64,000 bases of DNA, taken from a virus. This document shows, one piece after another, positions 3,182-63,058 of the stretch; the stretch's first letter is position 1; each line of letters begins with the position of its first letter. The stretch spans positions 62,001 through 126,000 of IMG/VR virus record IMGVR_UViG_3300027788_000004; one strand, 5' to 3'. The position numbers were made by a program, and so were the translations under genes. The notes under the pieces were generated by a model, which worked only from the letters and a program-made list of their open reading frames with translations, searched no databases and was not told the DNA's origin.

Positions 3182-3210
3182 GAAACCAATTAGCTATAAG
3201 TTCATATAAT
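3182..3210 (+). promoter_or_regulatory. ECF-type phage promoter (GAAAC-N16-CATATAAT) before the clamp gene
   Basis: GAAAC at 3182-3186, 16 bases, then CATATAAT at 3203-3210. The same bipartite element with the same spacing recurs before other genes in the window. It starts just after the nrdJ stop codon and 23 bases before the clamp-like start, so it would drive the clamp and the second polymerase half. Confidence 0.7.
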
Positions 3211-3232: not shown

Positions 3233-3979
3233 ATGAATTTAGAAATCACAAAAATTTACCCAGCTCCACTTACAGCAATGGTTAAAAAGCTATTGTTAAT
3301 GGACAGTGCAATTTATCTTAATTTAACGGAAGATAGAATTTTTTCGAACTCATACTTACCTACAAAGGATGTGGCTAAGATAGTTACTGTCGATACTAAA
3401 GATATTATGGAATTTGAAAATTCTGATGATATTGGTACAAACATTAAAGTTTCGTTTTTCGCAGGACAGAAACTAATTGATTGTCTTAAGTATTTTGATA
3501 TTCATAATCTTACTGGTACATTACATTGTTACGAAGAAGGCGACGAAAAATTTGCAGAAAAATTAGTTATTAGAGACCATTCATTAGAAATAACATTGCA
3601 TTGTGCGGATGTTTCTTTAGGATTTACTACAATGTCCGATGCACAAGTAACGGCAGCATTCGGTAAAGATAACGAAGTTTATTCTTTCGGTCTTTCACAA
3701 GAAACTTTAATTAAATTAAATAACCTTATCACACTTGATAAAAATGAATTATTCAGAATTTATTCAGATGATCGAGGAATCCATGTTGCTGGTGATACAT
3801 ATGATATTGTAATCGATGATACACACACAGAAAAACACGAAGAAGTTACTTTATTCAAAAGCTTCTTTTCTAGAATTGCAAAGGAATCATATAACGTTTC
3901 AGTATGTCAAAATAAATTAGTTTTAGATTCGGAAGATTCTAACACAAATATCGCACTGAATTTAGCAATCAAAGCTTAA
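3233..3979 (+). CDS. 45: Sliding clamp-like protein (gp45-like)
   Basis: Probable DNA polymerase processivity clamp. The 248-residue protein has alternating beta strands and short helices, consistent with a two-domain PCNA/gp45-type subunit; T4 gp45 is 228 residues. I see no diagnostic motif, so the call rests on size, fold pattern and position: it lies directly between the two DNA polymerase genes and its stop codon overlaps the start of the second half (TAATG at 3977-3981), indicating translational coupling. Clamp, clamp loader and polymerase genes are also neighbours in T4, and a gp44-like loader is present at 28326. The second polymerase half ends in a clamp-binding-like tail, which supports a clamp partner. 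An ECF-type promoter precedes it. Confidence 0.6.
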   Translation: MNLEITKIYPAPLTAMVKKLLLMDSAIYLNLTEDRIFSNSYLPTKDVAKIVTVDTKDIMEFENSDDIGTNIKVSFFAGQKLIDCLKYFDIHNLTGTLHCYEEGDEKFAEKLVIRDHSLEITLHCADVSLGFTTMSDAQVTAAFGKDNEVYSFGLSQETLIKLNNLITLDKNELFRIYSDDRGIHVAGDTYDIVIDDTHTEKHEEVTLFKSFFSRIAKESYNVSVCQNKLVLDSEDSNTNIALNLAIKA

Positions 3980-6412: not shown

Positions 6413-6716
6413 AAATGATTTCAAAATTAAGTATGTAATAGGAACTTATAAAGATGATCCTGATTATCCATCTAAAGAAGATTTGTTTGCAATGGCAGAT
6501 ATGTGGTATCATATAGAAGGAGGCCATGCATTTATCCATAGTTATCGAGGTTTAGAAAACGCAGGAGAAACTATTTTTACAGAAGACTTAATTTCACACA
6601 AAGGATTACCTAAAGAAAAAACAAAACTTTTATTATCAGAATTATTAGACTCTGGTGATATATCGGTATTCAAGGAAACCAAACACACTAGATATCATAT
6701 AATAAACAAAAGATAA
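6405..6716 (+). CDS. Small hypothetical protein, possible winged helix
   Basis: A 103-residue protein I do not recognise. Its second half (helix LPKEKTKLLLSELLDSG followed by two short strands ending RYHII) has the look of a winged-helix module, which is inference from pattern only. It overlaps the uvsX stop by 8 bases and is followed after 3 bases by the helicase, so it is translated within the recombination and replication cluster and might assist one of these enzymes. It is not similar to T4 gp40 or gp59 as far as I can see. Confidence 0.7.
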   Translation: MNKNDFKIKYVIGTYKDDPDYPSKEDLFAMADMWYHIEGGHAFIHSYRGLENAGETIFTEDLISHKGLPKEKTKLLLSELLDSGDISVFKETKHTRYHIINKR

Positions 6717-15615: not shown

Positions 15616-15644
15616 GAAACAATTCTTTTGGATCTGCATATAAT
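15616..15644 (+). promoter_or_regulatory. ECF-type phage promoter (GAAAC-N16-CATATAAT) before gp55-like sigma
   Basis: GAAAC at 15616-15620, exactly 16 bases, then CATATAAT at 15637-15644, 28 bases before the late sigma start and just after a terminator. It overlaps a late-like ATATATAA box at 15642-15650. This places the late sigma factor gene under the ECF-type class. Confidence 0.75.
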
Positions 15645-15671
15645 ATATAACTAATAAAAACATCGGACCAC

Positions 15672-28173: not shown

Positions 28174-28202
28174 GAAACAATTGAAAAAGTTTAACATATA
28201 AT
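28174..28202 (+). promoter_or_regulatory. ECF-type phage promoter (GAAAC-N16-CATATAAT)
   Basis: GAAAC at 28174-28178, 16 bases, CATATAAT at 28195-28202. It lies 17 bases before the 34-residue membrane peptide and would also drive the clamp loader gene. Confidence 0.7.
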
Positions 28203-28218
28203 AATTAAAGTAAATAAC

Positions 28219-28323
28219 ATGGACACAATAATAATAATAAGCGGAATTCTATGGTGCGTAATATGTGTATCCGCTGCAGTAGGAGCTATGATTTGCTACA
28301 TAGAAAATAAATACAAAAAATAA
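28219..28323 (+). CDS. 34-residue single-span membrane microprotein
   Basis: Reads MDTIIIISGILWCVICVSAA, then GAMICYIENKYKK. One strongly hydrophobic segment is followed by a basic tail, giving an N-out/C-in topology by the positive-inside rule. It is the first gene after a well-formed ECF-type promoter and ends 2 bases before the clamp loader start, so the spacing supports a real gene. Function unknown. Confidence 0.6.
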   Translation: MDTIIIISGILWCVICVSAAVGAMICYIENKYKK

Positions 28324-28325
28324 AT

Positions 28326-29279
28326 ATGACTCATTTAGAAACACTTTTATGGACCGAGCGATATCGGCCAAAAGAATTAAAGGACTTAATTGTTCCAGAA
28401 AGAATATACAAAAAATTAGATAAAGGAGTCTATCAAAACTTGCTCTTTTATGGTGGTCCTGGTAGTGGAAAAACTTCTTCTGCAAAAATACTTGCAAATG
28501 GCCATCCATATATGTACATTAATTGTTCTAGCGAAACTGGTGTAGATACGGTTAGAACTAAGATATCAGAGTTTTGTTCTACTCTATCTCTACTTGATGG
28601 CGAACGTAAATTAAAAGTAGTTATATTAGATGAGTTCGATGGAGTATCTGATGCATATATGAAAGCGCTTAGAGGAACTATCGAACAATTTCATATGAGT
28701 GCAAGATTCATAGCAACTTGTAATTATTTTAATAAGATTCCAGATAATATACAATCTAGATTTGAATGTATAAATTTTGACTTTACTGATGTTGAAGAAA
28801 CAGAAATTCTTAAAATGTATCTTAGGCGAATTTACGAAATCTGCAAACTAGAAGGAATGGAAATCGAAAAGGATGCTTTATTAGAATTAGTTAAAAGGAA
28901 GTTTCCAGATCTAAGAAATACAATTAATGTATTACAAGGATATCACGCTCAAGGAATAAGCAAAATATCATTAACCGATGTAACTACATTCCATGGAGTA
29001 TTTAAGGATTTGTTCGATATGATATTTTCTGAAATGGCATCATCTCATAAAAATTATCAGTATTTAGTAGGAACATATGGTCATAGAGTTGATGATGTAA
29101 TTAAATCATTAGGAAGTGATTTTGTAGAATATATTCAAACCGAACATCCTGCAAAAATTAAAAATTTAGGTGAAATATGTTATGAAGTAAACAAACATTC
29201 ATACGAATCTAGATTTGCAATTGATCCAGTAGTAACTATGTTATCATTGGTTTATAAATTACAACAGATCGTTAAATAG
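28326..29279 (+). CDS. 44: Clamp loader ATPase subunit (gp44-like)
   Basis: AAA+ ATPase that opens and loads the sliding clamp. Walker A GGPGSGKTSS at about residues 43-52, Walker B VVILDEFDG at about 98-106, sensor 1 near FIATCNYFNKIP and the arginine finger in IQSRFE (144-146) are all visible. The start WTERYRPKEL is typical of gp44/RFC small subunits. Length 317 against 319 in T4. The gp62-like small subunit is not recognised, although unknown genes follow closely. It is transcribed from the ECF-type promoter at 28174. Confidence 0.94.
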   Translation: MTHLETLLWTERYRPKELKDLIVPERIYKKLDKGVYQNLLFYGGPGSGKTSSAKILANGHPYMYINCSSETGVDTVRTKISEFCSTLSLLDGERKLKVVILDEFDGVSDAYMKALRGTIEQFHMSARFIATCNYFNKIPDNIQSRFECINFDFTDVEETEILKMYLRRIYEICKLEGMEIEKDALLELVKRKFPDLRNTINVLQGYHAQGISKISLTDVTTFHGVFKDLFDMIFSEMASSHKNYQYLVGTYGHRVDDVIKSLGSDFVEYIQTEHPAKIKNLGEICYEVNKHSYESRFAIDPVVTMLSLVYKLQQIVK

Positions 29280-29307
29280 AAACTTTTGCAAAACTTCGTC
29301 ATATAAA
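29279..29307 (+). promoter_or_regulatory. ECF-type phage promoter (GAAAC-N16-CATATAAA)
   Basis: GAAAC starts on the last base of the clamp loader stop codon (29279-29283), 16 bases, CATATAAA at 29300-29307; 17 bases to the exonuclease start. Confidence 0.7.
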
Positions 29308-29324
29308 ATTAAAATAACATTATA

Positions 29325-30521
29325 ATGAAAAGGTATACTTTAATAGTAGATGGTAATTATTTCTTACATAAGACATTCTTTATTTCTGGTAGAATTAAAG
29401 GAAATAAAGGTGCACTAAATTTTATCGATGATCCAGAAAAGGATGCAGATATTTTAATAAACAAATTAGCAACTGACTTTGCATACGAAGTTAGGCGATT
29501 TGCTCCAGTATTAGATGGAATTGTTTATTGCATAGATTCATCTTCATGGCGAAAGGATTTTTATCCAGAATCTAATGAATCTCCAAATGCGGTATCTAAG
29601 GAATATAAAGGCCAACGTAAACGAGATAACACTATAAATTGGAAAGCTATATATGATGTACATGATAAATTCGCAGCATCTCTTAAAAAATTAGGTTGTA
29701 CTATTTCTCGAGTTAGTGGAGCCGAAGCCGATGATCTTATATTCGCATGGTCAGCTTATCTTAATATGAACGAAAAAAATTCTTTAATCTTTTCTGGTGA
29801 TAACGATTTAATTCAATTAGTTTGTAATAACGAATCAAACGATACAAATACAGTATATTACAATAAATTTTCAAAGCGATTATATTCTCCATTAGGTTTT
29901 AGCGAATGGCTATCACAAACAACTACAGAAACTATCGATATATTTGATCAACCTTTAGATCTAACTAGTAATACTAAAATAGGTTTACAAGGTGTTTTAC
30001 GTGGTGTAGAAATTGCGGAAGTAGATACATTAGAATTTGTTTTCAAAAAGATTTTAACCGGCGATTCAGGTGATAATGTTTCTCCTTTACATCAATTCGT
30101 TAAAAAGTTAAAAACTGGAAAAACAAGAGTTTATGGAATAACCGATAAAAAAGCTACTATGATTCTAGAAAAATTCACAAGTAAAAATGGCGATCTAACA
30201 GAATCAACATTCTTTAATCAAAAAACAATTAACGAAATATGTCAAATAACTAGAGATACTTTAGGTATTCATAATAAAACTTTACCAGAACTAGTTGAAA
30301 AATACGAAGCTAATAGAAACTTAATGTATTTACATAACCGAGCTTTACCTGCTGCAATTATGGATGTTATGTTAAAATCTATCGAAGATGCAAAACATAC
30401 TACAATACATGCGATAGATCAAATAAATAAAACAAACATATCTACACCAATTTTGAATAACGAAAAAAACATAACTACCACTAACGAAGCTTCATTCTTT
30501 GGTGGAATAAAATTCGACTAA
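29325..30521 (+). CDS. rnh: 5'-3' exonuclease of FEN/T4 RNase H family
   Basis: Flap/RNA primer-removing nuclease for lagging-strand maturation. The N-terminal strand LIVDGNYFLHK holds the first metal-binding Asp. KEYKGQRKRD resembles the arch region, and GAEADDLIF and FSGDNDLIQL hold the central acidic cluster. LTGDSGDNVSP contains the second-site aspartates and begins the helix-hairpin-helix region. Length 398 is longer than T4 RNase H (305), mostly through a longer middle and a C-terminal extension. It has its own ECF-type promoter. Confidence 0.9.
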   Translation: MKRYTLIVDGNYFLHKTFFISGRIKGNKGALNFIDDPEKDADILINKLATDFAYEVRRFAPVLDGIVYCIDSSSWRKDFYPESNESPNAVSKEYKGQRKRDNTINWKAIYDVHDKFAASLKKLGCTISRVSGAEADDLIFAWSAYLNMNEKNSLIFSGDNDLIQLVCNNESNDTNTVYYNKFSKRLYSPLGFSEWLSQTTTETIDIFDQPLDLTSNTKIGLQGVLRGVEIAEVDTLEFVFKKILTGDSGDNVSPLHQFVKKLKTGKTRVYGITDKKATMILEKFTSKNGDLTESTFFNQKTINEICQITRDTLGIHNKTLPELVEKYEANRNLMYLHNRALPAAIMDVMLKSIEDAKHTTIHAIDQINKTNISTPILNNEKNITTTNEASFFGGIKFD

Positions 30522-30523
30522 TT

Positions 30524-30706
30524 ATGAGCACACCAGACTTCCACAAAACACCAATGGGTAAAAAATACTATGAGTATGATTTACCTCGTCTAATTGAATC
30601 TAATCAACAACTAGCCAAAGAATTAAAAAGACAGAATGATCTAAACGAAAAGATATCAAGGAAAAAGAAACCTGCTCAAGAACTTAAGAGAGGAAGGAAT
30701 CTATAA
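30524..30706 (+). CDS. Small basic hypothetical protein
   Basis: A 60-residue, helical and strongly basic protein (KKKPAQELKRGRN at the C-terminus), starting 2 bases after the exonuclease stop. It may bind nucleic acid; no family is recognised. Confidence 0.6.
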   Translation: MSTPDFHKTPMGKKYYEYDLPRLIESNQQLAKELKRQNDLNEKISRKKKPAQELKRGRNL

Positions 30707-30725
30707 ACAATTTTTTTCATATAAT
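30697..30725 (+). promoter_or_regulatory. ECF-type promoter, variant (GAATC-N16-CATATAAT)
   Basis: GAATC (one mismatch to GAAAC) at 30697-30701, 16 bases, CATATAAT at 30718-30725; 9 bases to the next start. The exact spacing supports it despite the mismatch. Confidence 0.5.
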
Positions 30726-30734
30726 AAATAAACT

Positions 30735-31157
30735 ATGCAACTATTCGATTTAGTTAGGGTTATGTTTACAAATCCTAAAAAGTATTCAGATATTAAAAAC
30801 TCAGATAAGGCTAAAAATCATTTTATGATTCAGCGCTTTATGTCTATAAATTATCCTGCACAAGCTCAACAATTAAATAGAAACGGTATTAATGGTGTAG
30901 GTGTTATTGATACTTGGCAATTTATTACATCAAGATTCAAACGTGTCCCTGGTTGGATATATACTAAAACAAAGAAAACTAAAAAACAACAGGCTAAGGA
31001 ATTTACATATTCTCCTGAATTAGTAGATTTGTATATAAGTAAAAACGAAACTTCTAAAAAGGATTTCGATATCTTAACCAAACTTTATCCTAGCGAAATG
31101 CAATCGTATTTCACGAAGCTAAGAAAACAATATGACACTTATGTTAGAAACGAATAA
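30735..31157 (+). CDS. Hypothetical protein of the replication region
   Basis: A 140-residue basic, helical protein: NPKKYSDIKNSDKAKNHF, then MIQRFMSINYPAQAQ and VPGWIYTKTKKTKKQ. I do not recognise the family with certainty. The missing clamp loader small subunit (gp62 in T4, 187 residues) could be here or in the next gene, since both follow gp44 and the exonuclease under an ECF-type promoter, but I see no sequence similarity to T4 gp62. The stop overlaps the next gene by 26 bases. Confidence 0.7.
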   Translation: MQLFDLVRVMFTNPKKYSDIKNSDKAKNHFMIQRFMSINYPAQAQQLNRNGINGVGVIDTWQFITSRFKRVPGWIYTKTKKTKKQQAKEFTYSPELVDLYISKNETSKKDFDILTKLYPSEMQSYFTKLRKQYDTYVRNE

Positions 31158-36583: not shown

Positions 36584-39500
36584 ATGGCTTTACCAGCGAA
36601 TATACAACAATTCAAGTCAAGTGGCGTTTACCGTTTAGAGTTTGATAAGAGTCAACTGATAAACATACCAGCTGAAACTATCAGATTGGTAATTGGTTAT
36701 TCAAATAAAGGACCTTTCAATACACCTATTTTCTGTGAGGATGCTAACTTCTTTAACGAAGTTTATGGCGGAATCGACACTGGATTGGAATTAAAAGGAT
36801 CTTACTTTCATAGATCATGTTTAACTGCTTTAGATAGAGGACCTATCCTTGCGTTAAACTTATGGAACATTACGGAGACCGTTACTGCAGACTTCAGAGC
36901 ATTAAGTGCAGAATCAAATCTTGCAAACAGAGCAGTTAATTCAACTTCTCCAGTTTCAAAATTCTTTAACCAAGATAAATTCTGGTTTATTGATGACGAT
37001 GCAGTAATATCTGCAATCAACACATATCAAGGTACTTGGGATGCACAATCTGCACCTAATGGATCTTCGATATTTAATTTAGCAAATACAGGAAAGAAAA
37101 CAATTTCAGTATTTGTAGTAAAATCCGATATGTCAGGTTACGATGCAACGGCAGAGGTATGGTACGGAACTGGAAAGGTACCTCCATATTTAGATAAATC
37201 AAGTTTAATTTCTGACTTTAATGTTAGAGTACTAATTATTCAAGGAGACTTTAGTAATTACAGCGCGTTAGCAATTGACCCTGTTTATGGAGCATACTTC
37301 GATTCAAAAGGACTTAAATCTACATACACAGATGCATTTGGAAATACAACTGATGGAATAACTGCTTTATTGCAACTTCCTGAAGTTACTGCACTTGCAG
37401 AATACCATGGTTCTTTACTACCAGAATTTGTAGATAAAGACGGAACAAACTTATTTATTGAAGATATAATAAATAACGAAACTTCTAGAACTGGTCTTGT
37501 TTGTGCAATGAACGATGAATGGTTCTACGATAATCCAGCCGGATCTACAAAAATAGTTGATGGTTTACAAATCGACTTAATTGGTCATGGATTGGAAGAA
37601 AATGAACATGGAATCTCAGTAATAGATTTCTTATCTTATTACGGAGCATTAAATGCATATCAACCATACAGACAACGAGTATATAATAATAACTTAGGCC
37701 TCACGGGTGTTACCGGTTCAACTGCATTAAACCCATATATCTTCGAAGGATACAGTGGAGCAGTAGGTGCTTCTCAATTTGAATTAGAGCAATCATCTAC
37801 ATATTCAACTGCTGCAATGGTTGGATGTTACGATATCTTAAATATCTATGGACCTAACCATCCATATGTTTTAGGTGGAACTGCCGGTTCTTATTGGGCA
37901 TCAGGAACTACTGCCGGACAATCTGCATTCGAAACTTTTGCTGGAGCAATAGTTGCAAACAACTCTTATGTAAGTGTAGGTGTTTCAGGTGCTTCTTCTT
38001 CAGCAGCTGCTGCTGGAGCTTCCGGTTATGAAGGTTGGCTACTTGGTGGAACCGCTGCTAGATACTCTTATGCAAAAGTAACATCAGTAACTACAGTATC
38101 TACAGTTAATCAGAAAGATTTACTTAAAATACAAATTGCACACACAGATGAAGCTGCAAATACAGGTATTGCTTTACCAGGTCCAAGTGCTGGAGGATTA
38201 GGTCAATGCTTTACATTAGGTTACAAACAAGGATTTGCTGGAAGTACATGGTTCGCTGCGGTAGGAACTACAAGTTCTGCAGTAAAAATTGAGGTTATTC
38301 CAAGCATTAACTATTGTGTTAATCCGGTTGGAATAGGCGCTTCTCATAATACAATGTATGGAGGTCCTGCTTCTCAATTAGGAGTAGATACAACTTCTGG
38401 AACTATTACTACTGGAGATAAAATACAAGGTATCAATACATCTACATGGAACTTTGCTCAAATACAAGCAGTTAATGCATTCGATTTACGAACTGTAGCT
38501 GCTGGACCTACATGGGGTATGGGTGCTGGAGTTGATGGATCGATGGCCGGTGGAGATGCATTTAATGCTTCTTCGGTTAATATGGTACTATCACACCAAG
38601 TTGCAAATGCAAGAGTAATATCTTATTCAGATGAAACTTATTCAACTGGAGCATCTATTGGAATTCTACCAGGAATGACTGGTTTCGTAGATCAATTTCT
38701 TTCGATACCTCAAAACGGTGCAACCGGTGCTACTTATAACGAAACGGTTTCTATTAGTACTTTCACTGGAGATATTAACGAAGTATTCCCTACACCTGCA
38801 AATGCATTAACAGCAGTTAATACAGTTATACTAGGTAATGGAACTACAGGAGGTGCAACAGCATACACTGGAAAAATCGAAGTTGGACAATATCTTGTAA
38901 GAGGTTTTGAAACGGTTGCTGGAAGTGGTGATTACAATAGTAAAATTGATCCTAGAACCGACACAACACGTTTAACTAGAATTAACAAAGCAATTGTTCA
39001 ATCTGGCGCAACACCATATTTTGAAATTACGACGGAAGATCCTATATATGTTTATCCAAATGTATCAGGTAATCCAACAGCGGTTGAAAGATATAAAAGT
39101 TTGAATGGATTTATTTCTAACTATACAGTGAGTGCACTTACAGGTTATACGGTTCCACTTACCGGAACTAAACCTGATGGTTCAAACATACAAATGAATA
39201 AGATTCTCGATGTAATGTATAATACTAACATCGCAGCAACCTTAACAGATAGAGATGCAATTACATTTAGATATATCGTTGATACATTTAATAATGGAAT
39301 TGAACCTTCATCTAAATCAAGGTTATCTAAAATATGTAAAAATAGACAAAATGCATTTGCGATACTTAATGCTCCTTCAATTAAGGAGTTTAAGAATTCA
39401 ACAAATCCATTATTCAAATTGAATTCTACTTCTACATTCAATCCACAATATATAGCAACTGGTGGTAATATGTCACTTAACCCTAGTAATATCTACTCAT

Positions 39501-40159
39501 TACCTGGAATTGCTGATGGAGCTAATTACTGTGGATTCTATACACCAAACCTTAGAATAAGAGAAAACGGTGCTACAAAGTTTGTTCCACCGGCTGCTCA
39601 TATTTCTAACCTATACATCGACAAATACCAAATGGCTTTACCATGGTCGATCGTTGCAGGACCTAGGAGAGGTGTAGTGAGTGGAACAGGAGTTGCAGGT
39701 CTTGAGTATAATTATGATAGAACTGATTTAGATAACGTTGAACCATTTGGACTAAATGCAATTGTTAATAAGAGAGGATTTGGATTAGTGATTAATGCTA
39801 ATCAAACTGCTCAACAAAATGTACAATCTGCATTATCTCAAATTCATGTTAGAGAATTACTTATCTACATTGAAGATGGAATCGCTGAAATTCTTAAGAA
39901 TTACAGATGGGAGTTCAATACTGCACAAAACAGATTAGAAATTAAAACATTATGTGATAACTTCTTATCTCAAATCCTAAACGATGGAGGTCTTTATGAT
40001 TTCCAAAACATTATGGATTCATCTAACAATACATCAGAAGTTATTGATAGTAACATTGGAATTATCGACACTTACGTAGAACCAGTAAGAGGAATGGGTA
40101 TCTTGGTTAATCGAGTAACTATTCTAAAAACCGGTGATATACAAGCTGGAAACTTCTAA
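36584..40159 (+). CDS. 18: Contractile tail sheath protein (gp18-like), unusually long
   Basis: Subunit of the contractile sheath. The N-terminal segment (SSGVYRLEFDKSQ, then VIGYSNKGPFNTP) and the C-terminal domain (WSIVAGPRRG, RGFGLVINANQT, QIHVRELLIYIEDG, RWEFNTAQNR) are typical sheath cores. T4 gp18 has 659 residues; this one has 1191. The extra length lies in the middle, about residues 350-850, and is rich in Ala, Gly, Ser and Thr, which suggests inserted surface domains on the outside of the sheath. The gene has its own late promoter and ends before a stem-loop. Confidence 0.94.
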   Translation: MALPANIQQFKSSGVYRLEFDKSQLINIPAETIRLVIGYSNKGPFNTPIFCEDANFFNEVYGGIDTGLELKGSYFHRSCLTALDRGPILALNLWNITETVTADFRALSAESNLANRAVNSTSPVSKFFNQDKFWFIDDDAVISAINTYQGTWDAQSAPNGSSIFNLANTGKKTISVFVVKSDMSGYDATAEVWYGTGKVPPYLDKSSLISDFNVRVLIIQGDFSNYSALAIDPVYGAYFDSKGLKSTYTDAFGNTTDGITALLQLPEVTALAEYHGSLLPEFVDKDGTNLFIEDIINNETSRTGLVCAMNDEWFYDNPAGSTKIVDGLQIDLIGHGLEENEHGISVIDFLSYYGALNAYQPYRQRVYNNNLGLTGVTGSTALNPYIFEGYSGAVGASQFELEQSSTYSTAAMVGCYDILNIYGPNHPYVLGGTAGSYWASGTTAGQSAFETFAGAIVANNSYVSVGVSGASSSAAAAGASGYEGWLLGGTAARYSYAKVTSVTTVSTVNQKDLLKIQIAHTDEAANTGIALPGPSAGGLGQCFTLGYKQGFAGSTWFAAVGTTSSAVKIEVIPSINYCVNPVGIGASHNTMYGGPASQLGVDTTSGTITTGDKIQGINTSTWNFAQIQAVNAFDLRTVAAGPTWGMGAGVDGSMAGGDAFNASSVNMVLSHQVANARVISYSDETYSTGASIGILPGMTGFVDQFLSIPQNGATGATYNETVSISTFTGDINEVFPTPANALTAVNTVILGNGTTGGATAYTGKIEVGQYLVRGFETVAGSGDYNSKIDPRTDTTRLTRINKAIVQSGATPYFEITTEDPIYVYPNVSGNPTAVERYKSLNGFISNYTVSALTGYTVPLTGTKPDGSNIQMNKILDVMYNTNIAATLTDRDAITFRYIVDTFNNGIEPSSKSRLSKICKNRQNAFAILNAPSIKEFKNSTNPLFKLNSTSTFNPQYIATGGNMSLNPSNIYSLPGIADGANYCGFYTPNLRIRENGATKFVPPAAHISNLYIDKYQMALPWSIVAGPRRGVVSGTGVAGLEYNYDRTDLDNVEPFGLNAIVNKRGFGLVINANQTAQQNVQSALSQIHVRELLIYIEDGIAEILKNYRWEFNTAQNRLEIKTLCDNFLSQILNDGGLYDFQNIMDSSNNTSEVIDSNIGIIDTYVEPVRGMGILVNRVTILKTGDIQAGNF

Positions 40160-40918: not shown

Positions 40919-40947
40919 GATACACCATCTATAATAGTACATATAAA
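40919..40947 (+). promoter_or_regulatory. ECF-type promoter, variant (GATAC-N16-CATATAAA), in a 227-base non-coding gap
   Basis: GATAC (one mismatch) at 40919-40923, 16 bases, CATATAAA at 40940-40947. The gap 40824-41050 holds only the tube terminator, this site and a late-type box; no gene is seen. The CATATAAATA also contains the exact T4 late box TATAAATA at 40942-40949. Confidence 0.4.
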
Positions 40948-45600: not shown

Positions 45601-46515
45601 TATAGACATACTCCTATTATACTTGCAAAATTAGCAGAAATAACTGAAGGATTTAAGACTGCCTTTTCTAAAGGATGGTCTAACTATACAGGAAGATTAG
45701 TAATAACACTTAGAATGTTTAACATTACTTTACAGTATTTCAGAGAGTATTCGCTTCAAATCATGGATAACTTAGATGCTATGGTTAATGTTTATCATCA
45801 TATACCAATCGTATCTAAAATGTTAGTTATTATGTCTAAATCATTTAGAAAATGGATGGATCTTAAAATGACTGATAAAGTGGTTCAAACATTTACTAAT
45901 TGGCATATGGCTTTAGCTAATTTGTTTAATCCAAGAGTTTATAAAGGAGCTTGGCAACAAAGTAGATTATTTGGTAAATTTACTAAAAATGTAGAAGCTC
46001 TTGCAAGAGTAGCTCCTATGTGGAAACTGATGGCTAAAGGAATGAACGATACTGCTACCGGTATGGAACGTTACGCAGTGGCTGTTAATAGTTTTAATCC
46101 AGAAAAATTACAAATGGTTGAAGGACTTATGGCTCACTTAGCTGCAATTAGTAAAAGGAATTATAGTATGGATATGATGGGTAAAAATTTAGGTGATGGA
46201 ATTGAACGAGGATTTGAGTTACTTGCAGAAAAGGTTATGGAGATAATACAAGAACAACAAAACAATTTAACTGTTTTAGAAAAGGTTGGAAACGCTCTTT
46301 TACCTGGAGATCCATTTGGAAAAGCTAACGATTATAGCGGTGATGGAAAGGCACAAACAGGAACTGAGAAAAAAGGTGGTGGTGGTAATCAAATGGCTAA
46401 ATCTATTGCAAGTGCGGTAGGAAAAGCGGTGAGTAAATCAATGAATGAACTTACTACAAAAACGTTAACTGTTAAATCTGCTAGTCAGTATGGCGGAGAT
46501 AAAGTTACGTTCTAA
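42652..46515 (+). CDS. Tape-measure-like large tail protein with membrane segments and repeats
   Basis: A 1287-residue protein at the position after the gp26/gp51 block where T4 has its length-determining gp29 (590 residues). Residues about 110-440 contain several strongly hydrophobic helices (for example FAISIVIAIPFLLIAPIG), typical of tape measures that contact the host membrane. Residues about 490-840 hold four degenerate repeats of about 100-110 residues; each has a LAxGIxxFANL segment, a T-M-T-E-x-DF segment and GWFF-NNYTxKG (in two of the copies almost identical). A second family of repeats (YEHTPQILKNL, YRHTPIILAKL) follows at about 850-1020. The tape-measure role is inferred. Confidence 0.8.
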   Translation: MAQQQNINTAILGTLQNIESLLETGEVRGQKLETDLAGMSETGVVGASEWKDFSKFFGEMAKGISALVKSAEKMSPKAAKNIKSLLVGIGEAIQGFFEEVSVKEAQTFTMLLKGLASNILKFAISIVIAIPFLLIAPIGALLFGFTVRLLMWAMGAVGRGARKQAKAIRAILSLARGIFLFSLAMVAVTLLAPFILIGAVVFALTLFILSIGLRFVSNRKTKQGMRSLLGMTLVILLLGLTVYFLGQLLTWKAIALVTVLVIGLALAFFVAGIFKSQIMGGSLAMLLGAIAVIFLAFAMTIWKSAKVGWMDIAMVGALILGLGIVFALAGIPVVAGFIALGAAVMMLAALPIIMISGALLIFKTANWQKKDGALLEGALGSIVTGFLGGPMPGGIMSGIKFAAKLAARTAFMFIAIPAFILASVALLPISLALLTFKKANFQKKDGKALEFVMGSIISAFGLVGDKKRQKKMGIDVDPWELYLGTISLSRAGNTLANLAEGIQAFANLNVPIYEFNESKGELVVVEKRPMTESDFDMAAYGMGKVISSIAEPFAFVGKLDKGESSGNSFYDAIFGGGLIKRGVKSLQGAGEVLVGLAKGVKDFANLTISQWEMREVDGKMTMVEIARTPMTEGDFTSATNNIRRVVSNVADVFAAVGKAEADGGWFFSNNYTRKGVAALAGSGQIISQLSIGLKNFANLTVSTYGMVKNKDGVMELKEISRKTLTNSDFKKATQNMRKVINVAAGIFGDVGEAQAKGTWFFANNYTQKGIKAVSGAGDVMVALAKGIQSMANLTFPTYEVRRGKMVMTGVTTITGGGLAKAGASIRSIITTSVSGITFAAMMIAGQEKNMKLVYENAPKISKALVDIAKGFSKAYKAGIDPNMLVPMAVLMRSWRFVIDGLVRSAWQMGFAQEHLPTLYEHTPQILKNLQSIARGFNKMVKIGVDPMLMMHTRILTWSWSLVVKTFTKAALKVAIFQRHLMILYRHTPIILAKLAEITEGFKTAFSKGWSNYTGRLVITLRMFNITLQYFREYSLQIMDNLDAMVNVYHHIPIVSKMLVIMSKSFRKWMDLKMTDKVVQTFTNWHMALANLFNPRVYKGAWQQSRLFGKFTKNVEALARVAPMWKLMAKGMNDTATGMERYAVAVNSFNPEKLQMVEGLMAHLAAISKRNYSMDMMGKNLGDGIERGFELLAEKVMEIIQEQQNNLTVLEKVGNALLPGDPFGKANDYSGDGKAQTGTEKKGGGGNQMAKSIASAVGKAVSKSMNELTTKTLTVKSASQYGGDKVTF

Positions 46516-46525
46516 GATATATAAT
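46516..46525 (+). promoter_or_regulatory. Late-type promoter GATATATAAT
   Basis: GATATATAAT directly after the tape-measure stop codon, 87 bases before the next gene; overlaps the region of an ECF-type site. Confidence 0.45.
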
Positions 46526-46532
46526 AAAATAT

Positions 46533-46561
46533 GAAACAAAGTTGATTTGTGTTCATATAAC
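46533..46561 (+). promoter_or_regulatory. ECF-type phage promoter (GAAAC-N16-CATATAAC)
   Basis: GAAAC at 46533-46537, 16 bases, CATATAAC at 46554-46561; 41 bases before the start of the accessory island. Confidence 0.6.
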
Positions 46562-46602
46562 TATAAAGTTAATAAAGTAATCAAGGTTAAAACGTCTATT
46601 TA

Positions 46603-46911
46603 ATGGCAAAAGAACATTTCACTACAATGGAGTTAAAGTCTCCATCAGGATTTTCATATTGTGCATACGACAATATAAAGGATTCGTCTATACTTAAGGG
46701 CGAACATATTGGCAAAAGAGTTATGGTCGCTGGTTATAAAACCACGTCCAAATTTTATTTGAAGAGCTGCCATAATAAAGGAGATCAATACCATCCAACA
46801 AATAATGCATATACAGTAAAGACTAACACAGGAATGGAAAGGGTTTTTTACTCAGAACAATGTAGATTGCATCCAGCAGAATACAGAAAAGGTAAAAGAT
46901 GGCAACGATGA
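46603..46911 (+). CDS. Hypothetical protein
   Basis: A 102-residue basic protein, beta-rich, with three Cys and four His residues spread along it (CHNKGDQYH and CRLHP among them), which may bind a metal. No family is recognised. It is the first gene of the accessory island under an ECF-type promoter, and its stop overlaps the next gene. Confidence 0.65.
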   Translation: MAKEHFTTMELKSPSGFSYCAYDNIKDSSILKGEHIGKRVMVAGYKTTSKFYLKSCHNKGDQYHPTNNAYTVKTNTGMERVFYSEQCRLHPAEYRKGKRWQR

Positions 46912-47420
46912 TATATGTAATCTCAGATACTTTTTTTGGAAGGTACTCTAAAGCTAAAGAGCGTGGTTTTGATAATACTCACGATATGCAAAAACATCTT
47001 ATAGAAGCATGGAATGCTAAAGTAAACCCTAACGATATAGTATATCATTTGGGTAATTTTGCATGGGATATTATTTCGGCAGAACATGCATTACTTAATC
47101 TTAATGGCAATATAAACTTCTTACCATCAACTTATGATTCAGCTTTAATGGAAACTGTAGATGTTTTTGATAATCTAAAAGTTATCGATAATAGTATATA
47201 TGTTATAGAAAGTTTAGAATGGGTACTTTCTCCATGGCCATTAAAAGATTGGCCAGGTAAGAAACATGGAGCTATGCATGTACATGGAGGAGATAAACGA
47301 TACAAAGCTCAGTTGCAAAAAGAATTAAGATTTAATTCAAATTGTGATTTATGGAGTTATGCTCCAGTATCATTAGAATCATTAACTGAAGTGATAGAGA
47401 TGGCAAAAGAAAATTGTTAA
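46899..47420 (+). CDS. Calcineurin-like phosphoesterase with lost catalytic residues (pseudoenzyme)
   Basis: The overall pattern of the small phosphohydrolase family is clear (ISDT-F-FG, FDNTHDMQKHLIEAWN, VYHLGNFAWD, LNGNINFL). However, the metal ligands are changed: H12 of the D-x-H motif is Phe, the Asp of LGD is Asn53, and GNHD is STYD (77-80). The C-terminal GHxH is HVHGGD. With at least three ligands lost it is unlikely to hydrolyse phosphates and may act as a binding protein. The likely start is the third Met codon at 46908, where ATGA overlaps the previous stop. The gene ends against repeat copy C. Confidence 0.8.
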   Translation: MATMIYVISDTFFGRYSKAKERGFDNTHDMQKHLIEAWNAKVNPNDIVYHLGNFAWDIISAEHALLNLNGNINFLPSTYDSALMETVDVFDNLKVIDNSIYVIESLEWVLSPWPLKDWPGKKHGAMHVHGGDKRYKAQLQKELRFNSNCDLWSYAPVSLESLTEVIEMAKENC

Positions 47421-47513
47421 TAACTTTTGAAAAATAAATGAAAAATAAGTGACTAAAAGTTTTTTTATTCCACCAAAAAGTATTATATTTATATTATAAT
47501 AATTAAAACAATA
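47416..47513 (+). repeat. Regulatory repeat, copy C, before the ECF sigma gene
   Basis: Third copy, nearly identical to copy B in GTTAATAACTTTTGAAAAATAA and in CCACCAAAAAGTATTATATT onward. It differs by an 11-bp tandem duplication (AAAAATAAATG / AAAAATAAGTG) between the inverted arms, so the arms are one helical turn further apart. It ends 22 bases before the sigma factor gene. Confidence 0.8.
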
Positions 47514-47534
47514 ATAAACAAAAACAAAAACAGT

Positions 47535-48149
47535 ATGACATTAAAAACATTAGGATTAGAATTCGCCGAAACAAAATCAGAAAAGATTTACAACGATCTT
47601 TATCATCGAATTAAACCAGGATTAAAAAATTATATCAATCAAATAGTTAAAGATAATCAAGCATCCGATGATTTATTCTCTATGACAATGGCTATTGTAT
47701 ATAATAAAATAGAACAATATAAACCAGAATTTCATATATCTACTTGGATTTATCGTATAGCATACCATGAAGCTATCATGCACTTAAGGAGAAAAAAACG
47801 AGCAGCAACTACACCATTCTCCGTTTTCGATTCATATTATGATGGTGATAATTCAAGAGCATCCGAAACGTTAATTTTTAATAATACAGATCAAGAACCT
47901 TTTGAAGATGATTTTCTAACAAGAGAAGAAAAAGAAAAGGAACAAGAAATAGTTCAAATCGCAATTAAAGAAGCGATATCTAATCTAGATCCTTTATATA
48001 AAGAAATTGTAGAAGATCGTTTATTAAACGAAATGAAATATAACGCAATTTCTCTTAAACATAAATTACCTTTACATACAATTAAAAATAGAATTGCGAG
48101 AGGTAAACGAATTTTACAATCAGGACTTAAAAACTATCAGAATATATAA
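47535..48149 (+). CDS. ECF-type sigma factor with regions 2 and 4
   Basis: RNA polymerase specificity factor. Region 2: ASDDLFSMTMAIVYNKIEQY then FHISTWIYRIAYHEAIMHL and RRKKR, the canonical core-binding and -10-reading helices. Region 4: ISNLDPLYKEIVEDRL then YNAISLKHKLPLHTIKNRI and ARGKRIL, the helix-turn-helix that reads the -35. An acidic linker (about residues 100-140) separates them. Length 204 is normal for ECF sigmas. No anti-sigma gene follows. It is distinct from the gp55-like protein, which lacks region 4. The GAAAC-N16-CATATAAT elements in this window have ECF promoter architecture and are its obvious candidate targets. Confidence 0.9.
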   Translation: MTLKTLGLEFAETKSEKIYNDLYHRIKPGLKNYINQIVKDNQASDDLFSMTMAIVYNKIEQYKPEFHISTWIYRIAYHEAIMHLRRKKRAATTPFSVFDSYYDGDNSRASETLIFNNTDQEPFEDDFLTREEKEKEQEIVQIAIKEAISNLDPLYKEIVEDRLLNEMKYNAISLKHKLPLHTIKNRIARGKRILQSGLKNYQNI

Positions 48150-48150
48150 T
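48140..48150 (+). promoter_or_regulatory. Late-type box GAATATATAAT at end of ECF sigma gene
   Basis: The last codons of the sigma gene form GAATATATAAT, 15 bases before the next start. It may be a real late promoter or a coincidence of an AT-rich Asn-Ile-stop ending. Confidence 0.3.
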
Positions 48151-48164
48151 TAAATTACAAAACT

Positions 48165-48692
48165 ATGGCACAAAAAGATAACGCATTTTTCGACTTTTTC
48201 AAATGGCTAATCCGACCTTTCGATTGGCCTAAATCAACTTACCAAGAATTAAAAGATTGGTATATTATGAAGAACGTTTGTAAGGAAGTAGGGATACAAC
48301 AAATGTTTAAGAAGAACGATCCAGAAATTAGATATGATAAACTTTATAGACTATATACAGTTATTAACATACCCGAAGAATTATATGACAAACAACATGA
48401 ACAAGCTAGACAAACATTTTTAATCGATCAATTAAGAAAAATTGATGAATTTACAGTGTCTTTAGGTATTAGCGAAATCTTATACCCAGAGTATAATATC
48501 ATTACCGATGTTCCAGATTCCTTTGCTTATTTATTAACATTAGAAACTGATAAAGAAAGTTTAACCATTTGGAAATTTTTAGGATGGATATTAAAATTAT
48601 CTATATGGACAATCATTTATTTAGCTATCAATTCTATTATTTTTAATACTACAGGAAATTCAATCATCGGTTGGATATCCTCTTTAATATAA
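48165..48692 (+). CDS. Hypothetical protein with C-terminal membrane anchor
   Basis: A 175-residue protein. The N-terminal 130 residues are soluble and charged; a hydrophobic stretch near residues 142-165 (LGWILKLSIWTIIYLAINSI) would anchor the C-terminus in a membrane. No family is recognised. It lies 15 bases after the ECF sigma gene, so a membrane-bound partner such as an anti-sigma could be imagined, but there is no zinc or anti-sigma motif to support that. Confidence 0.65.
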   Translation: MAQKDNAFFDFFKWLIRPFDWPKSTYQELKDWYIMKNVCKEVGIQQMFKKNDPEIRYDKLYRLYTVINIPEELYDKQHEQARQTFLIDQLRKIDEFTVSLGISEILYPEYNIITDVPDSFAYLLTLETDKESLTIWKFLGWILKLSIWTIIYLAINSIIFNTTGNSIIGWISSLI

Positions 48693-48696
48693 TTAT

Positions 48697-49428
48697 ATGA
48701 AAACAACTACAGGGCCTAACGGTAAGGGCAGATATTATATCATAAACAAAGATATTCAATTACCATCAGTAACAACGATATTAGGAGAAATGACTGATAA
48801 ATCAGGCATAGAACGTTGGAAAAAACGAGTAGGAGAAGAAAAGGCAAACGAAATTTCAAAGAATGGGTGTGATAGAGGAACATTTATGCACGAATTAAAT
48901 GAGCGTTATCAGTACCTCTTAGTGAATGAAAAGGATGATAGTGGTATATTAAAGAAAACATTCGAAGATGTACTAGCCAATCCTGAAATGTCCAAGATTA
49001 GTCCAGAAAACAAAGAGAGAGGTAAAAATTTATTCGTAAAAATGCTTAATTACGGGTTGTTTAATCGAGTAGAAAAATTAGAATTACAAGAAGAAGCAGT
49101 GTGGTCAGGACGTGGAGGAGGTTATGCAGGTAGATTAGATAAAGCCGCTAGAATAGATGGAAAATTAAAAATTGTAGATTATAAAAGTTCTAGCAAACCT
49201 AAACGAGAAGAATGGATAGAAAATTATAAAATGCAAGGAGCTGCTTATAGCGTAGCTTATTTTGATCGTTATGGAGAGATGCCAGATGGATTTGAAATAT
49301 GGATTGCAAATGATGTTCAAGATAAGCCACAAGTATTCAAAGGAAATCAACAAGATATAAGAAAGTATTTCAAAATGTTCCACGACTTAGTAATAGAATA
49401 TCATTCACTTAACACAGTTAGTAATTAA
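48697..49428 (+). CDS. PD-(D/E)XK nuclease, RecB/Cas4-like
   Basis: Metal-dependent exonuclease domain. LPSVTTIL near the start, GTFMHELNE with the conserved His, GYAGRLDKAARIDG with the catalytic Asp, LKIVDYKSSSKPK with the D-x-K core and YKMQGAAYSVAY with the downstream Gln/Tyr motif occur in the order of RecB-type nucleases. Length 243, without helicase domains or an iron-sulfur cysteine cluster. A role in DNA degradation or recombination is likely; the exact partner is unknown. It is followed without a gap by the glycosyltransferase-like gene. Confidence 0.88.
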   Translation: MKTTTGPNGKGRYYIINKDIQLPSVTTILGEMTDKSGIERWKKRVGEEKANEISKNGCDRGTFMHELNERYQYLLVNEKDDSGILKKTFEDVLANPEMSKISPENKERGKNLFVKMLNYGLFNRVEKLELQEEAVWSGRGGGYAGRLDKAARIDGKLKIVDYKSSSKPKREEWIENYKMQGAAYSVAYFDRYGEMPDGFEIWIANDVQDKPQVFKGNQQDIRKYFKMFHDLVIEYHSLNTVSN

Positions 49429-51097: not shown

Positions 51098-51126
51098 GAA
51101 ACTTTTTTTATCATAATTCATATAAT
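51098..51126 (+). promoter_or_regulatory. ECF-type phage promoter (GAAAC-N16-CATATAAT)
   Basis: GAAAC at 51098-51102, 16 bases, CATATAAT at 51119-51126; 16 bases to the epimerase start. Confidence 0.7.
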
Positions 51127-51141
51127 ATCTAAAATAACATT

Positions 51142-52032
51142 ATGGGTATAACAGATACTACAAAAATCTTAGTTACAGGTGGAGCTGGTTATGTTGGTTC
51201 TAATCTTATAAAAACATTACTTGACACCGATCCAGATATACGTATAATATCTTTTGATAACTATTCTACTGGATTGCGTTCTAATCATATCGATAACCCA
51301 AAGATAACATATCTAGAAGGTGATTGTAAAGATTTACGTAGTATGAGAATTCTTAGAGATGTTAAAACCGTATTTCATTTTGGTGAATACTCTAGAATAA
51401 CTACATCATTTGAAGATATCAAAACGGTTGCAGATTCGAATATGCAAGGAACGTTTAATGTTCTTGAATTTTGTAGAGAAAACAAATGTAATCTTATTTA
51501 TTCTGCATCAAGCTCAAAATTTGGTGATGGTAATGAAAACCTTTCTCCATACGCTTGGATGAAATCAAAGAATGTAGAACTAATAAAAAATTATAATACA
51601 TGGTTTGATCTTCAATATGATATAGCATACTTCTATAATGTATATGGAAAGAACCATATAAAAACAGGAAAGTACGCAACGGTAATTGGTATATTTGAAA
51701 ACGCAGTAGAAAATAATGAACCAATTCCTATCATCGGAGATGGAGATCAAGAACGAGACTTTACTCATGTTGATGATATTACATTAGGATTGTACAAGAT
51801 CTATAAAAAAAGTTTACGGAACAAAGAATACTTTTTAGGAACCGGAGAGAATCATACGATACTCAAGGTTGCACTAATGTTTTCTAATAATATAAAACAC
51901 TTACCGAAAAAGGTTGGTGAGAGAAAATCATCTATCATACCATCAAATAAAAATAATCAAAAAATTGGATGGAAAAGCCAAATAAAACTAAAAGAATATA
52001 TAAAACAATTGAAAGTGAGTGAAACTTTCTAA
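51142..52032 (+). CDS. NAD-dependent sugar-nucleotide epimerase/dehydratase (GalE-like SDR)
   Basis: Extended short-chain dehydrogenase. TGGAGYVGSNL is the Rossmann dinucleotide motif, YSASSSKFGDG holds the catalytic Ser/Thr position, and YAWMK is the YxxxK active site. GDGDQERDFTHVDDI is the conserved sugar-nucleotide-binding block. Length 296. It probably changes a UDP- or GDP-sugar for the neighbouring glycosyltransferases. The exact reaction (epimerase or dehydratase) cannot be fixed from these motifs. Confidence 0.88.
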   Translation: MGITDTTKILVTGGAGYVGSNLIKTLLDTDPDIRIISFDNYSTGLRSNHIDNPKITYLEGDCKDLRSMRILRDVKTVFHFGEYSRITTSFEDIKTVADSNMQGTFNVLEFCRENKCNLIYSASSSKFGDGNENLSPYAWMKSKNVELIKNYNTWFDLQYDIAYFYNVYGKNHIKTGKYATVIGIFENAVENNEPIPIIGDGDQERDFTHVDDITLGLYKIYKKSLRNKEYFLGTGENHTILKVALMFSNNIKHLPKKVGERKSSIIPSNKNNQKIGWKSQIKLKEYIKQLKVSETF

Positions 52033-52048
52033 AAACTATTCATATAAT
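52021..52048 (+). promoter_or_regulatory. ECF-type promoter, 15-base spacer variant (GAAAC-N15-CATATAAT)
   Basis: GAAAC at 52021-52025 inside the end of the epimerase gene, 15 bases, CATATAAT at 52041-52048; 26 bases to the next start. The spacer is one base shorter than in the other sites. Confidence 0.55.
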
Positions 52049-52073: not shown

Positions 52074-52652
52074 ATGGAAAAGACTACAATGAATGTAATC
52101 AAAAATGACGGTCCTATATCAGCTGACCAAGTAAAAACTCAGGGATTAACTGAGAATAACGAAAAAGCTATGAAATTTGAAGAAGAAATGGTTGAGAAAC
52201 AAAAAGAACTTACCAAAAAGAAATACAAAGTAAAAACTACAGAAAGCACTGTAAAATACCTTACTGGAGACTTTTATAATAATGTTGAATGGAACGGTTA
52301 TGAGTGTTATGCTATTAGTGAAACAAACTCAGTTATTACTAAGATGGTATCTAAACTTAAACCATCTAAAACCGGTAAAGTAACGCTTTCATTTACACCA
52401 GATATTTTACAAGCGGTATTTCACTTTATGAAAGGTCATAAAGGAACTGGAATTCAAACTGCACAAAATCACAGATTGTTATGCGAAGATTTTTCATCTG
52501 CAATGGCTGACCTAAACGGCGATCATAAATTAGTAAGAGATCTTGCTGTTGAAGCTGAAGCTGCTAAACACGGAATTACAACCGATGAGTATGAAAGAAT
52601 GGCTGCAGAAAACGCTCCACAACAACCAAACGGTGGAAGAATGCCTTCATAA
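52074..52652 (+). CDS. Hypothetical protein
   Basis: A 192-residue protein, helical and charged in the first 60 residues, then a mixed domain with two Cys, and an Ala/Glu-rich C-terminal helix ending in a Pro/Gln/Gly tail. No known motif. The ECF-type site before it suggests middle expression. Confidence 0.65.
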   Translation: MEKTTMNVIKNDGPISADQVKTQGLTENNEKAMKFEEEMVEKQKELTKKKYKVKTTESTVKYLTGDFYNNVEWNGYECYAISETNSVITKMVSKLKPSKTGKVTLSFTPDILQAVFHFMKGHKGTGIQTAQNHRLLCEDFSSAMADLNGDHKLVRDLAVEAEAAKHGITTDEYERMAAENAPQQPNGGRMPS

Positions 52653-61781: not shown

Positions 61782-61810
61782 GAAACATTTTTGAATCGTA
61801 TACATATAAT
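61782..61810 (+). promoter_or_regulatory. ECF-type phage promoter (GAAAC-N16-CATATAAT)
   Basis: GAAAC at 61782-61786, 16 bases, CATATAAT at 61803-61810; 28 bases to the glycosyltransferase start. Confidence 0.7.
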
Positions 61811-61837: not shown

Positions 61838-63058
61838 ATGAAGGAAAATGAATTACCATTTTTAGGGTTAAACATAATCGTTAAAAATGAAGAAAAGGTA
61901 ATCGCAAGAATGCTGGAAACAGTAGCGCCTTTAATCGATTGGTACACTATCGTTGATACCGGTTCCACAGATCGTACAAAAGAAATCTGCAAGGAAGTTA
62001 TGGATAAACATGGCATTCCTGGTGAGATTATCGATCATAAATGGGAGAACTTTTGTGCTGCTAGAAACGCTGCATTACAAGCGGCTAAAGGTAAATGCGA
62101 ATTTGCATTTTGGATAGACGCTGATGAACAACTAATATGGCCAGATAAATTCTCTAAAGATAAACTTATTACTGGACTTAAGAATTTTGATGCAGGTGCA
62201 ATAACTGTAAATTACGGAAGTCAAACTTATTTTAGAACTCAATTTATGAGAGTATCTTGTCCATGGGAATGGAGAGGTGCTGTTCACGAAATACAATTAC
62301 CTAAGGAAGGATCTGACTTTAATCCTAGAGGAACACAAGTTGGAGGTCTTAGTGTATTAGTAACTCCAGATGGTGCTTCGTGGGGAGATGGATCAGATCC
62401 AAAGGCTGCTCAAGAAGCGAAGTATAGAGAACATGCAGAAATGTTACATGAGTATATTAAAACAGATAGTGATATTAGATGGATATTCTATTTAGCTCAA
62501 TCTTATAGAGATTCGTTTCAATGGGAATTAGCTGAAAAATACTATCAACAAAGAACCGATAGTGAAGAAGGTTATTGGGAAGAACGTTATTTTTCTGCGT
62601 TAATGGTTGCTTCTATGAGATCTAATCAAGGTAAACCAGTAAATGAAATAATGGAAGCTTACGCATATTGTTCTAGATTTGACTATCGTAGAGCTGAGCA
62701 TTTTATTCCTATCATAAGATATTATCAAGGATTGCAAAACTGGCCAATGGCTTACTCGTTATCTAAATATGTTATTGATAATTGCTCTAAAAATCCTTTC
62801 CCAACATCATCACTATTTATAGATAAAGCAACATATGATTGGCAATGTTTAGATCTACATTGTATATCAGCATTTTATATGGGTAAATTACCTGAAGCAA
62901 AAAAGATCTATAATAAATTAAGAAAGGCAATTAACGCAGGATTAGTACCAGAATCAGAACATAAGAGAATTATAGATAATGATAAGTGGTATAAGCAAGC
63001 AGCTAAGGATAAATCATCGGCACCGAGTCCTAATGTTATTCCTATTCTTAAAAAATAA
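61838..63058 (+). CDS. Family 2 glycosyltransferase with TPR-like C-terminal region
   Basis: A 406-residue protein. Residues 8-240 form a GT2 catalytic domain: LNIIVKNEEKVIARML is the classical N-terminal motif, VDTGSTDRTKEI the UDP-binding DxGSxD motif, and FWIDADEQL the DxD metal site. Residues about 240-390 are helical pairs with TPR-like pattern (IFYLAQSYRDSFQWELAEKY). The same two-domain design occurs in bacterial glycosyltransferases of unknown acceptor. It is the only sugar gene outside the 49-54 kb cluster and has its own ECF-type promoter. The stop overlaps the next start. Confidence 0.88.
   Translation: MKENELPFLGLNIIVKNEEKVIARMLETVAPLIDWYTIVDTGSTDRTKEICKEVMDKHGIPGEIIDHKWENFCAARNAALQAAKGKCEFAFWIDADEQLIWPDKFSKDKLITGLKNFDAGAITVNYGSQTYFRTQFMRVSCPWEWRGAVHEIQLPKEGSDFNPRGTQVGGLSVLVTPDGASWGDGSDPKAAQEAKYREHAEMLHEYIKTDSDIRWIFYLAQSYRDSFQWELAEKYYQQRTDSEEGYWEERYFSALMVASMRSNQGKPVNEIMEAYAYCSRFDYRRAEHFIPIIRYYQGLQNWPMAYSLSKYVIDNCSKNPFPTSSLFIDKATYDWQCLDLHCISAFYMGKLPEAKKIYNKLRKAINAGLVPESEHKRIIDNDKWYKQAAKDKSSAPSPNVIPILKK

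Follow-up and report, generated by a model that had tools for sequence, protein, structure and literature searches.

A phage-encoded ECF-type sigma factor and a conserved middle-promoter family support a predicted two-sigma relay in T4-like viruses

Phage sigma cascades and single ECF-like phage sigma factors are known. In phage SPO1, host sigma, a phage middle sigma (gp28) and a phage late sigma (gp33/gp34) follow one another (PMC9429907), as proposed below for the virus studied here; however, SPO1 infects Bacillus and uses a late factor other than a T4-type gp55. This likeness is one of cascade order, judged without the gp28 sequence. Phage 7-11 gp47 and phiEco32 gp36 are likewise phage sigma factors that work with the host core RNA polymerase. 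Phage 7-11 also has a bipartite promoter, GTAAtg-(16)-aCTA (PMC8948821), and the phiEco32 group has been called ECF (PMC7881722). Unlike the present virus, these are enterobacterial podoviruses with a single phage sigma and no gp55 stage, and 7-11 lacks a middle class. Our virus resembles T4 in its gp55-like gene, in a late core resembling TATAAATA and in a middle class rich in replication genes, whereas an ECF sigma factor with a -35 box would replace the activator and anti-sigma (MotA/AsiA) of T4. Jumbo phages of group 2, among them Lak and PTm1, reportedly encode minimal and RpoD-like sigma factors plus gp33 (PMC7824862). The virus is a relative of theirs (capsid, LR756500), but for these sigma factors the relevant review passages describe neither a promoter family nor a regulon or relay (PMC7824862). 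No account of an ECF middle sigma relaying to a T4-type gp55, with sigma and promoter co-varying across a clade, turned up in the literature searched, most subscription journals lying outside its scope; within that literature the combination is probably undescribed.

The window analysed here (64,000 b) spans positions 62001 to 126000 of a viral metagenome record that is 132,786 b long. By gene content the virus is a T4-like myovirus: the record carries portal, head protease, capsid, sheath and tube genes, together with replication genes for a gp44-like clamp loader, a gp41-like helicase, a gp32-like SSB and a 5'-3' exonuclease. The capsid protein shares 53% identity with its counterpart in the 462-kb phage LR756500 and is related to the capsids of Lak, Tenacibaculum, Chryseobacterium and Flavobacterium phages. 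Start regions are A-rich and without a Shine-Dalgarno sequence, and the TTATATTT(A/G) early promoters of related phages resemble TAnnTTTG, the flavobacterial sigmaA box (PMC9723704). On these two grounds we infer that the host probably belongs to the Bacteroidota.

The product of 47535-48149 matches the Pfam models Sigma70_r2 (3.5e-12) and Sigma70_r4_2 (3.3e-6), both above the cut-offs, and the ECF superfamily model TIGR02937 (71.5 bits, cut-off 42.9). Its sigma2 (residues ~1-91) and sigma4 (~130-202) domains are joined by a linker (93-125), and no other domains are present. A 12-sequence profile of the family retrieved SigW (1.3e-21), and almost all further matches of solved structure were ECF or related sigma factors. 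In the predicted structure, two helical domains flank a linker of low confidence, and the fold matches those of sigmaE, AlgU and SigW. ECF sigma factors are recognized by having these two domains only, at ~200 aa, and by their nearest relatives being ECFs; the protein satisfies both. A further mark, an AAC-containing -35 box with ~16 b to the -10 box, is also met, the pairing of sigma and sites being inferred. The membership of the protein in this family is shown: it is an ECF (group IV) sigma factor, nearest to SigW/SigE. A close search of bacterial genomes gave no relatives of the phage ECF, and no recent host donor was therefore identified. Cognate anti-sigma factors are usual, not universal, for ECF sigma factors; the gene after the ECF gene (48165-48692) has no family match (NCBIfam only). 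Directly before the ECF gene lies a phosphoesterase gene (46899-47420), a neighbourhood also found in the distant relatives LR756500, G022, G027 and G034, where the two genes form an operon.

The motif GAAAC-N16-CATATAAT occurs exactly ten times on the forward (gene) strand of the whole record and once on the reverse strand, and all ten forward copies directly precede genes. Up to one mismatch gives 15 forward and 3 reverse matches in the record, and the pattern read backwards, used as a control, gives none. Within the window, 21 matches with up to two mismatches compare with 5.9 expected, and none of 100 shuffles reached 21. The spacing of exact sites is equally sharp, with 11 at N16, one at N15 and none at N14, N17 or N18. 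Nine of the ten exact forward sites fall in non-coding DNA, which makes up only 3.3% of the genome (binomial 5e-13); the tenth, at 6675, overlaps the final bases of the preceding ORF. Sites stand 6-71 b from the start codon. The motif and its position are thus shown, and with a frequency far above chance, a fixed spacer and a fixed position it is very likely a real promoter family. About fourteen copies are present in the virus, and pattern classes assign middle sites to 14 genes of the parent record. The geometry matches that of ECF promoters, for which TGAAAC-N16-CGTA of SigW is an example. A TATAAT-like -10 box is unusual among ECF sigma factors, which is a point against the ECF reading these sites.

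Table 1. Promoter sites and associated genes in the window (window coordinates; middle, late and early are predicted classes).
Feature	Position	Strand	Remark
Middle site, exact	3182..3210	+	23 b before sliding clamp gene
Sliding clamp (gp45/PCNA fold)	3233..3979	+	Predicted structure; fold matches include T4 gp45
Middle site, exact	6675..6703	+	17 b before start codon of helicase gene
DnaB/gp41-like helicase gene	6720-8021	+	Behind the 6675 site
Middle site, exact	15616..15644	+	28 b before gp55-like gene
gp55-like late sigma, 119 aa	15672..16031	+	phrog_234 (PHROG late sigma), 3.8e-10
Middle site, exact	28174..28202	+	17 b before 34-aa ORF at 28220
gp44 clamp loader	28326-29279	+	Preceded by 34-aa ORF; 124 b from the 28174 site
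Middle site, one mismatch	29279..29307	+	Before 5'-3' exonuclease gene 29325-30521
Middle site (GAATC), one mismatch	30697..30725	+	Before 30735-31157
140-aa gene	30735-31157	+	gp62-like by position only
Late core example, [GA]ATATATAA	36550..36558	+	Before tail sheath gene 36584-40159
Middle site (CATATAAC), one mismatch	46533..46561	+	Before 46603-46911, 102 aa, unknown
Early-type promoter core, TATTATATTTATAT	47481..47494	+	Before ECF gene
ECF-type sigma factor, 204 aa	47535..48149	+	sigma2 + sigma4; proposed middle sigma
Middle site, exact	51098..51126	+	Before nucleotide-sugar epimerase gene 51142-52032
Middle site, exact boxes, N15 spacer	52021..52048	+	Before 52074-52652, unknown
Middle site, exact	61782..61810	+	Before glycosyltransferase gene 61838-63058

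The middle genes of the record comprise those for the clamp, helicase, SSB, dUTPase, an HhH-GPD repair protein, exonuclease, the gp62-like candidate, epimerase, glycosyltransferase and gp55, together with unknowns. The gp44 site is additional to the 14 genes, since it stands before a small leader ORF: the 28174 copy belongs to the 34-aa ORF, which leads into gp44. The putative clamp gave no significant sequence match in Pfam, PHROG or PDB, and its identity rests on a predicted fold that is clearly PCNA/gp45 (one sequence was left out of the alignment for this prediction). An earlier note, made from the letters of the DNA without database searches, had taken 47535-48149 for an ECF sigma with regions 2 and 4, which held by domain models, profile and fold. 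It had also proposed a promoter family with a mostly 16-base spacer, which held in the whole-record scan, the shuffles and the spacing scan, and had named as targets the clamp, clamp loader, exonuclease, sugar genes and gp55 gene, which held as well. All ten of its sites were recovered in place; it had missed the exact site at 6675, and its site at 40919, with two mismatches and 104 b to the next sizeable ORF, is the weakest of those listed. Outside the window, two divergent middle sites lie upstream of the gp32-like SSB gene, at record positions 46957-46985 (-) and 47020-47048 (+) (L011 6957-6985 and 7020-7048), and the leftward one would give antisense RNA across the upstream gene. A similar divergent pair is found upstream of gp32 in the relative G012, at 18516-18544 (-) and 18590-18618 (+).

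The early core precedes four genes of the parent record, the ECF gene among them. It stands before the ECF gene, or before its two-gene operon with the phosphoesterase, in 12 of 12 readable genomes. LR756500, where the ECF gene lies downstream of the phosphoesterase and the promoter was not identified, is outside this count. A sigma-70 (TTGACA/TATAAT) scan of 46500-48800 gave no more than chance. Inferred from sequence alone, the ECF-gene promoter is likely to be early and of the Bacteroidota sigmaA-like type. The early promoters upstream of 27042, 27598, 47535 and record position 131029 have ~60 b in common beyond the core (GAAAAATAAGTG...AAAAGTTTTT...ATTATATTTATATTATAAT). This stretch exceeds what sigmaA contacts need, and may be an activator or operator site.

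A T4-type late stage is expected to have a gp55 homologue with a region-2-like domain and -10-only late promoters ahead of structural genes. The gp55-like protein has a weak Sigma70_r2 match (0.0043), which meets the first expectation, and no region 4 that could serve a -35 box was detected in it; gp55 is present in all relatives examined. The late core occurs 31 times forward and once in reverse in the parent record, before 25 genes, and those that can be named are all structural, as the second expectation requires. Before orthologues, the late core is found at 58 of 97 structural genes versus 3 of 103 middle genes. Hardly any gene has both middle and late sites, and in the parent record only the gp55 gene carries both patterns. 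Three promoter classes are shown in this way; their timing is inferred. At 15616-15650, the gp55 middle site and a late core (AATATATAA) overlap, an arrangement that would allow gp55 to sustain its own expression.

Related phages were gathered by capsid and clamp-loader searches. The ECF family is present in 16 of 33 related records, several of the remainder being short contigs. About a dozen of the related phages show the AAAC-N16/17-ATATAA signal, and most of these also have an orthologue of the ECF gene. A two-box search of upstream regions with no preset pattern returned boxes of this type as the top or a leading result in G000, G001, G012, G013, G018, G022, G026, G027 and G034. Spacing scans gave one sharp peak at N17 in G000, G001, G006, G007, G009, G012, G013 and G018, and one at N16 in LR756500 (W01), G022, G026, G027 and G034. 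In the ECF tree, the N16 phages for which an ECF sequence is available (four) cluster, and the N17 phages lie apart. The spacer follows this tree, which is support and not proof because a single change on the tree is involved. The -10 box varies as well: G009 has AATATAAT instead of CATATAAT, and G020, whose ECF is the most divergent examined, has lost ATATAA and carries AAAC-N18-ATTTAA upstream of its gp44, gp41, gp32 and gp55 orthologues. This retention of the targets with a changed -10 box is the single most telling observation. Conservation and co-variation are therefore shown; that the ECF reads the motif is inferred.

In five Bacteroidota phages without this ECF, motif counts were only at control level. 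None has a full ECF orthologue, and MA9V-1 and PAU have other Sigma70_r2 matches; the five therefore serve as controls only where this ECF is concerned, not sigma factors in general. Three relatives (G002, G004 and G011) have the ECF and no clear bipartite motif, which counts against the ECF reading. Three others (G012, G015 and G026) have the motif and no ECF on their partial contigs. Many CATATAA boxes without a recognisable -35 box stand before genes of G002 and G004 (L310-L318, L264-L276).

The exact clade motif precedes 32 of 105 orthologues of middle genes, 1 of 109 of structural genes and 74 of 2608 of other genes; without near relatives, the figures are 21 of 80 for middle versus 1 of 76 for structural orthologues. 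Promoter copies among related phages are not fully independent in these counts. The conserved targets are the clamp, clamp loader, helicase, SSB, exonuclease, dUTPase and gp55-like late sigma. A middle site precedes gp55 in 8 of 15 genomes (p = 2e-9 versus background), or nine genomes with G020, and seven have no clear middle site directly before gp55. In the 462-kb LR756500.1, four Sigma70_r2 matches were found, and more than one alternative sigma may act in the largest relatives. It is possible that another sigma shares or does the job of the ECF there.

A T4-like middle mode, in which GAAAC is the box of a MotA-like activator and the host primary sigma reads the -10 box, is unlikely. T4 middle promoters do pair a host-type -10 with an activator box at about -30, CATATAAT resembles a sigma-70 -10, and a diverged, undetectable activator cannot be excluded. 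However, no match to AsiA or MotA was found in 21 records (the parent record being incomplete), whereas the T4 positive control was detected; the earlier note's claim that the MotA/AsiA mode is absent held to this extent. Moreover, a Bacteroidota host sigmaA would want TAnnTTTG (PMC9723704), and the -10 box and spacer vary with the ECF. We also consider it improbable that a host ECF or primary sigma reads the sites and that the phage ECF acts otherwise, for example by altering host genes. Flavobacteria do have several ECF sigma factors (PMC9723704), but motif presence among related phages tracks the phage ECF, the changed -10 of G020 accompanies a divergent phage ECF, a CGT box is found in SM6, the ECF motif of flavobacteria (PMC9723704), and the regulon consists of phage replication genes. 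That another phage sigma such as gp55 reads the middle sites, the ECF reading another set, is very unlikely. This explanation is favoured by the presence of gp55 in all relatives examined and by the similarity of the middle CATATAAT and late ATATATAA -10 boxes, but it is opposed by the lack of a detectable region 4 for a -35 box, by the nearly separate gene sets and by MA9V-1, which has gp55 without such a motif. A chance origin of GAAAC-N16-CATATAAT in a genome of 68% A+T, where CATATAA cores are common, was rejected and is all but excluded: the shuffles and the reversed-pattern control speak against it, as do the sharp peak in spacing and the comparison of orthologues.

The most likely reading remains a relay from host sigmaA to phage ECF to gp55, for which there are no expression or binding data. 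A host sigmaA-type promoter would drive early production of the ECF, which would bind the host core RNA polymerase and initiate at GAAAC-N16-CATATAAT; binding and initiation are inferred. Its regulon would include the clamp, clamp loader, helicase, SSB, exonuclease, dUTPase, the epimerase and glycosyltransferase genes and the gp55-like late sigma gene. The late sigma, probably aided by clamp and loader as in T4, would then read [GA]ATATATAA upstream of the genes for head and tail. Transcription that depends on gp55 is activated in T4 by the clamp gp45 once gp44/62 has loaded it, so that a single ECF regulon would yield the late sigma together with its activator; this role of the clamp is also inferred. 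A relay of the SPO1 kind has an early promoter on the middle sigma and a middle promoter on the late sigma, and this is met by promoter sequence only. The two-sigma relay proposed in the earlier note is supported as a prediction: the ECF-to-gp55 step is clear in nine genomes, not in all, and without transcription or binding data the relay, however well supported, stays a prediction rather than a proven cascade. Beyond that note, relatives share motif and targets, spacer and -10 co-vary, and the ECF gene has an early-type promoter.

On balance we lean, with some reserve, towards a bolder reading. A conserved three-tier relay, with an ECF in the place of MotA/AsiA, would run throughout a clade of T4-like Bacteroidota phages that extends up to a 462-kb huge phage. 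The regulon of the ECF would be centred on the needs of late transcription (gp55, clamp and clamp loader) and on replication, and sigma and promoter would have co-diverged in spacer and -10 box into many separate pairs. The relay offers an explanation, open to test, of how a middle phase arises in T4-like phages that lack MotA/AsiA. It does so for Bacteroidota and huge phages, a group whose phage transcription is little studied. Because promoter and sigma appear to change together, the relatives may provide a natural set of sigma-promoter pairs for ECF specificity.
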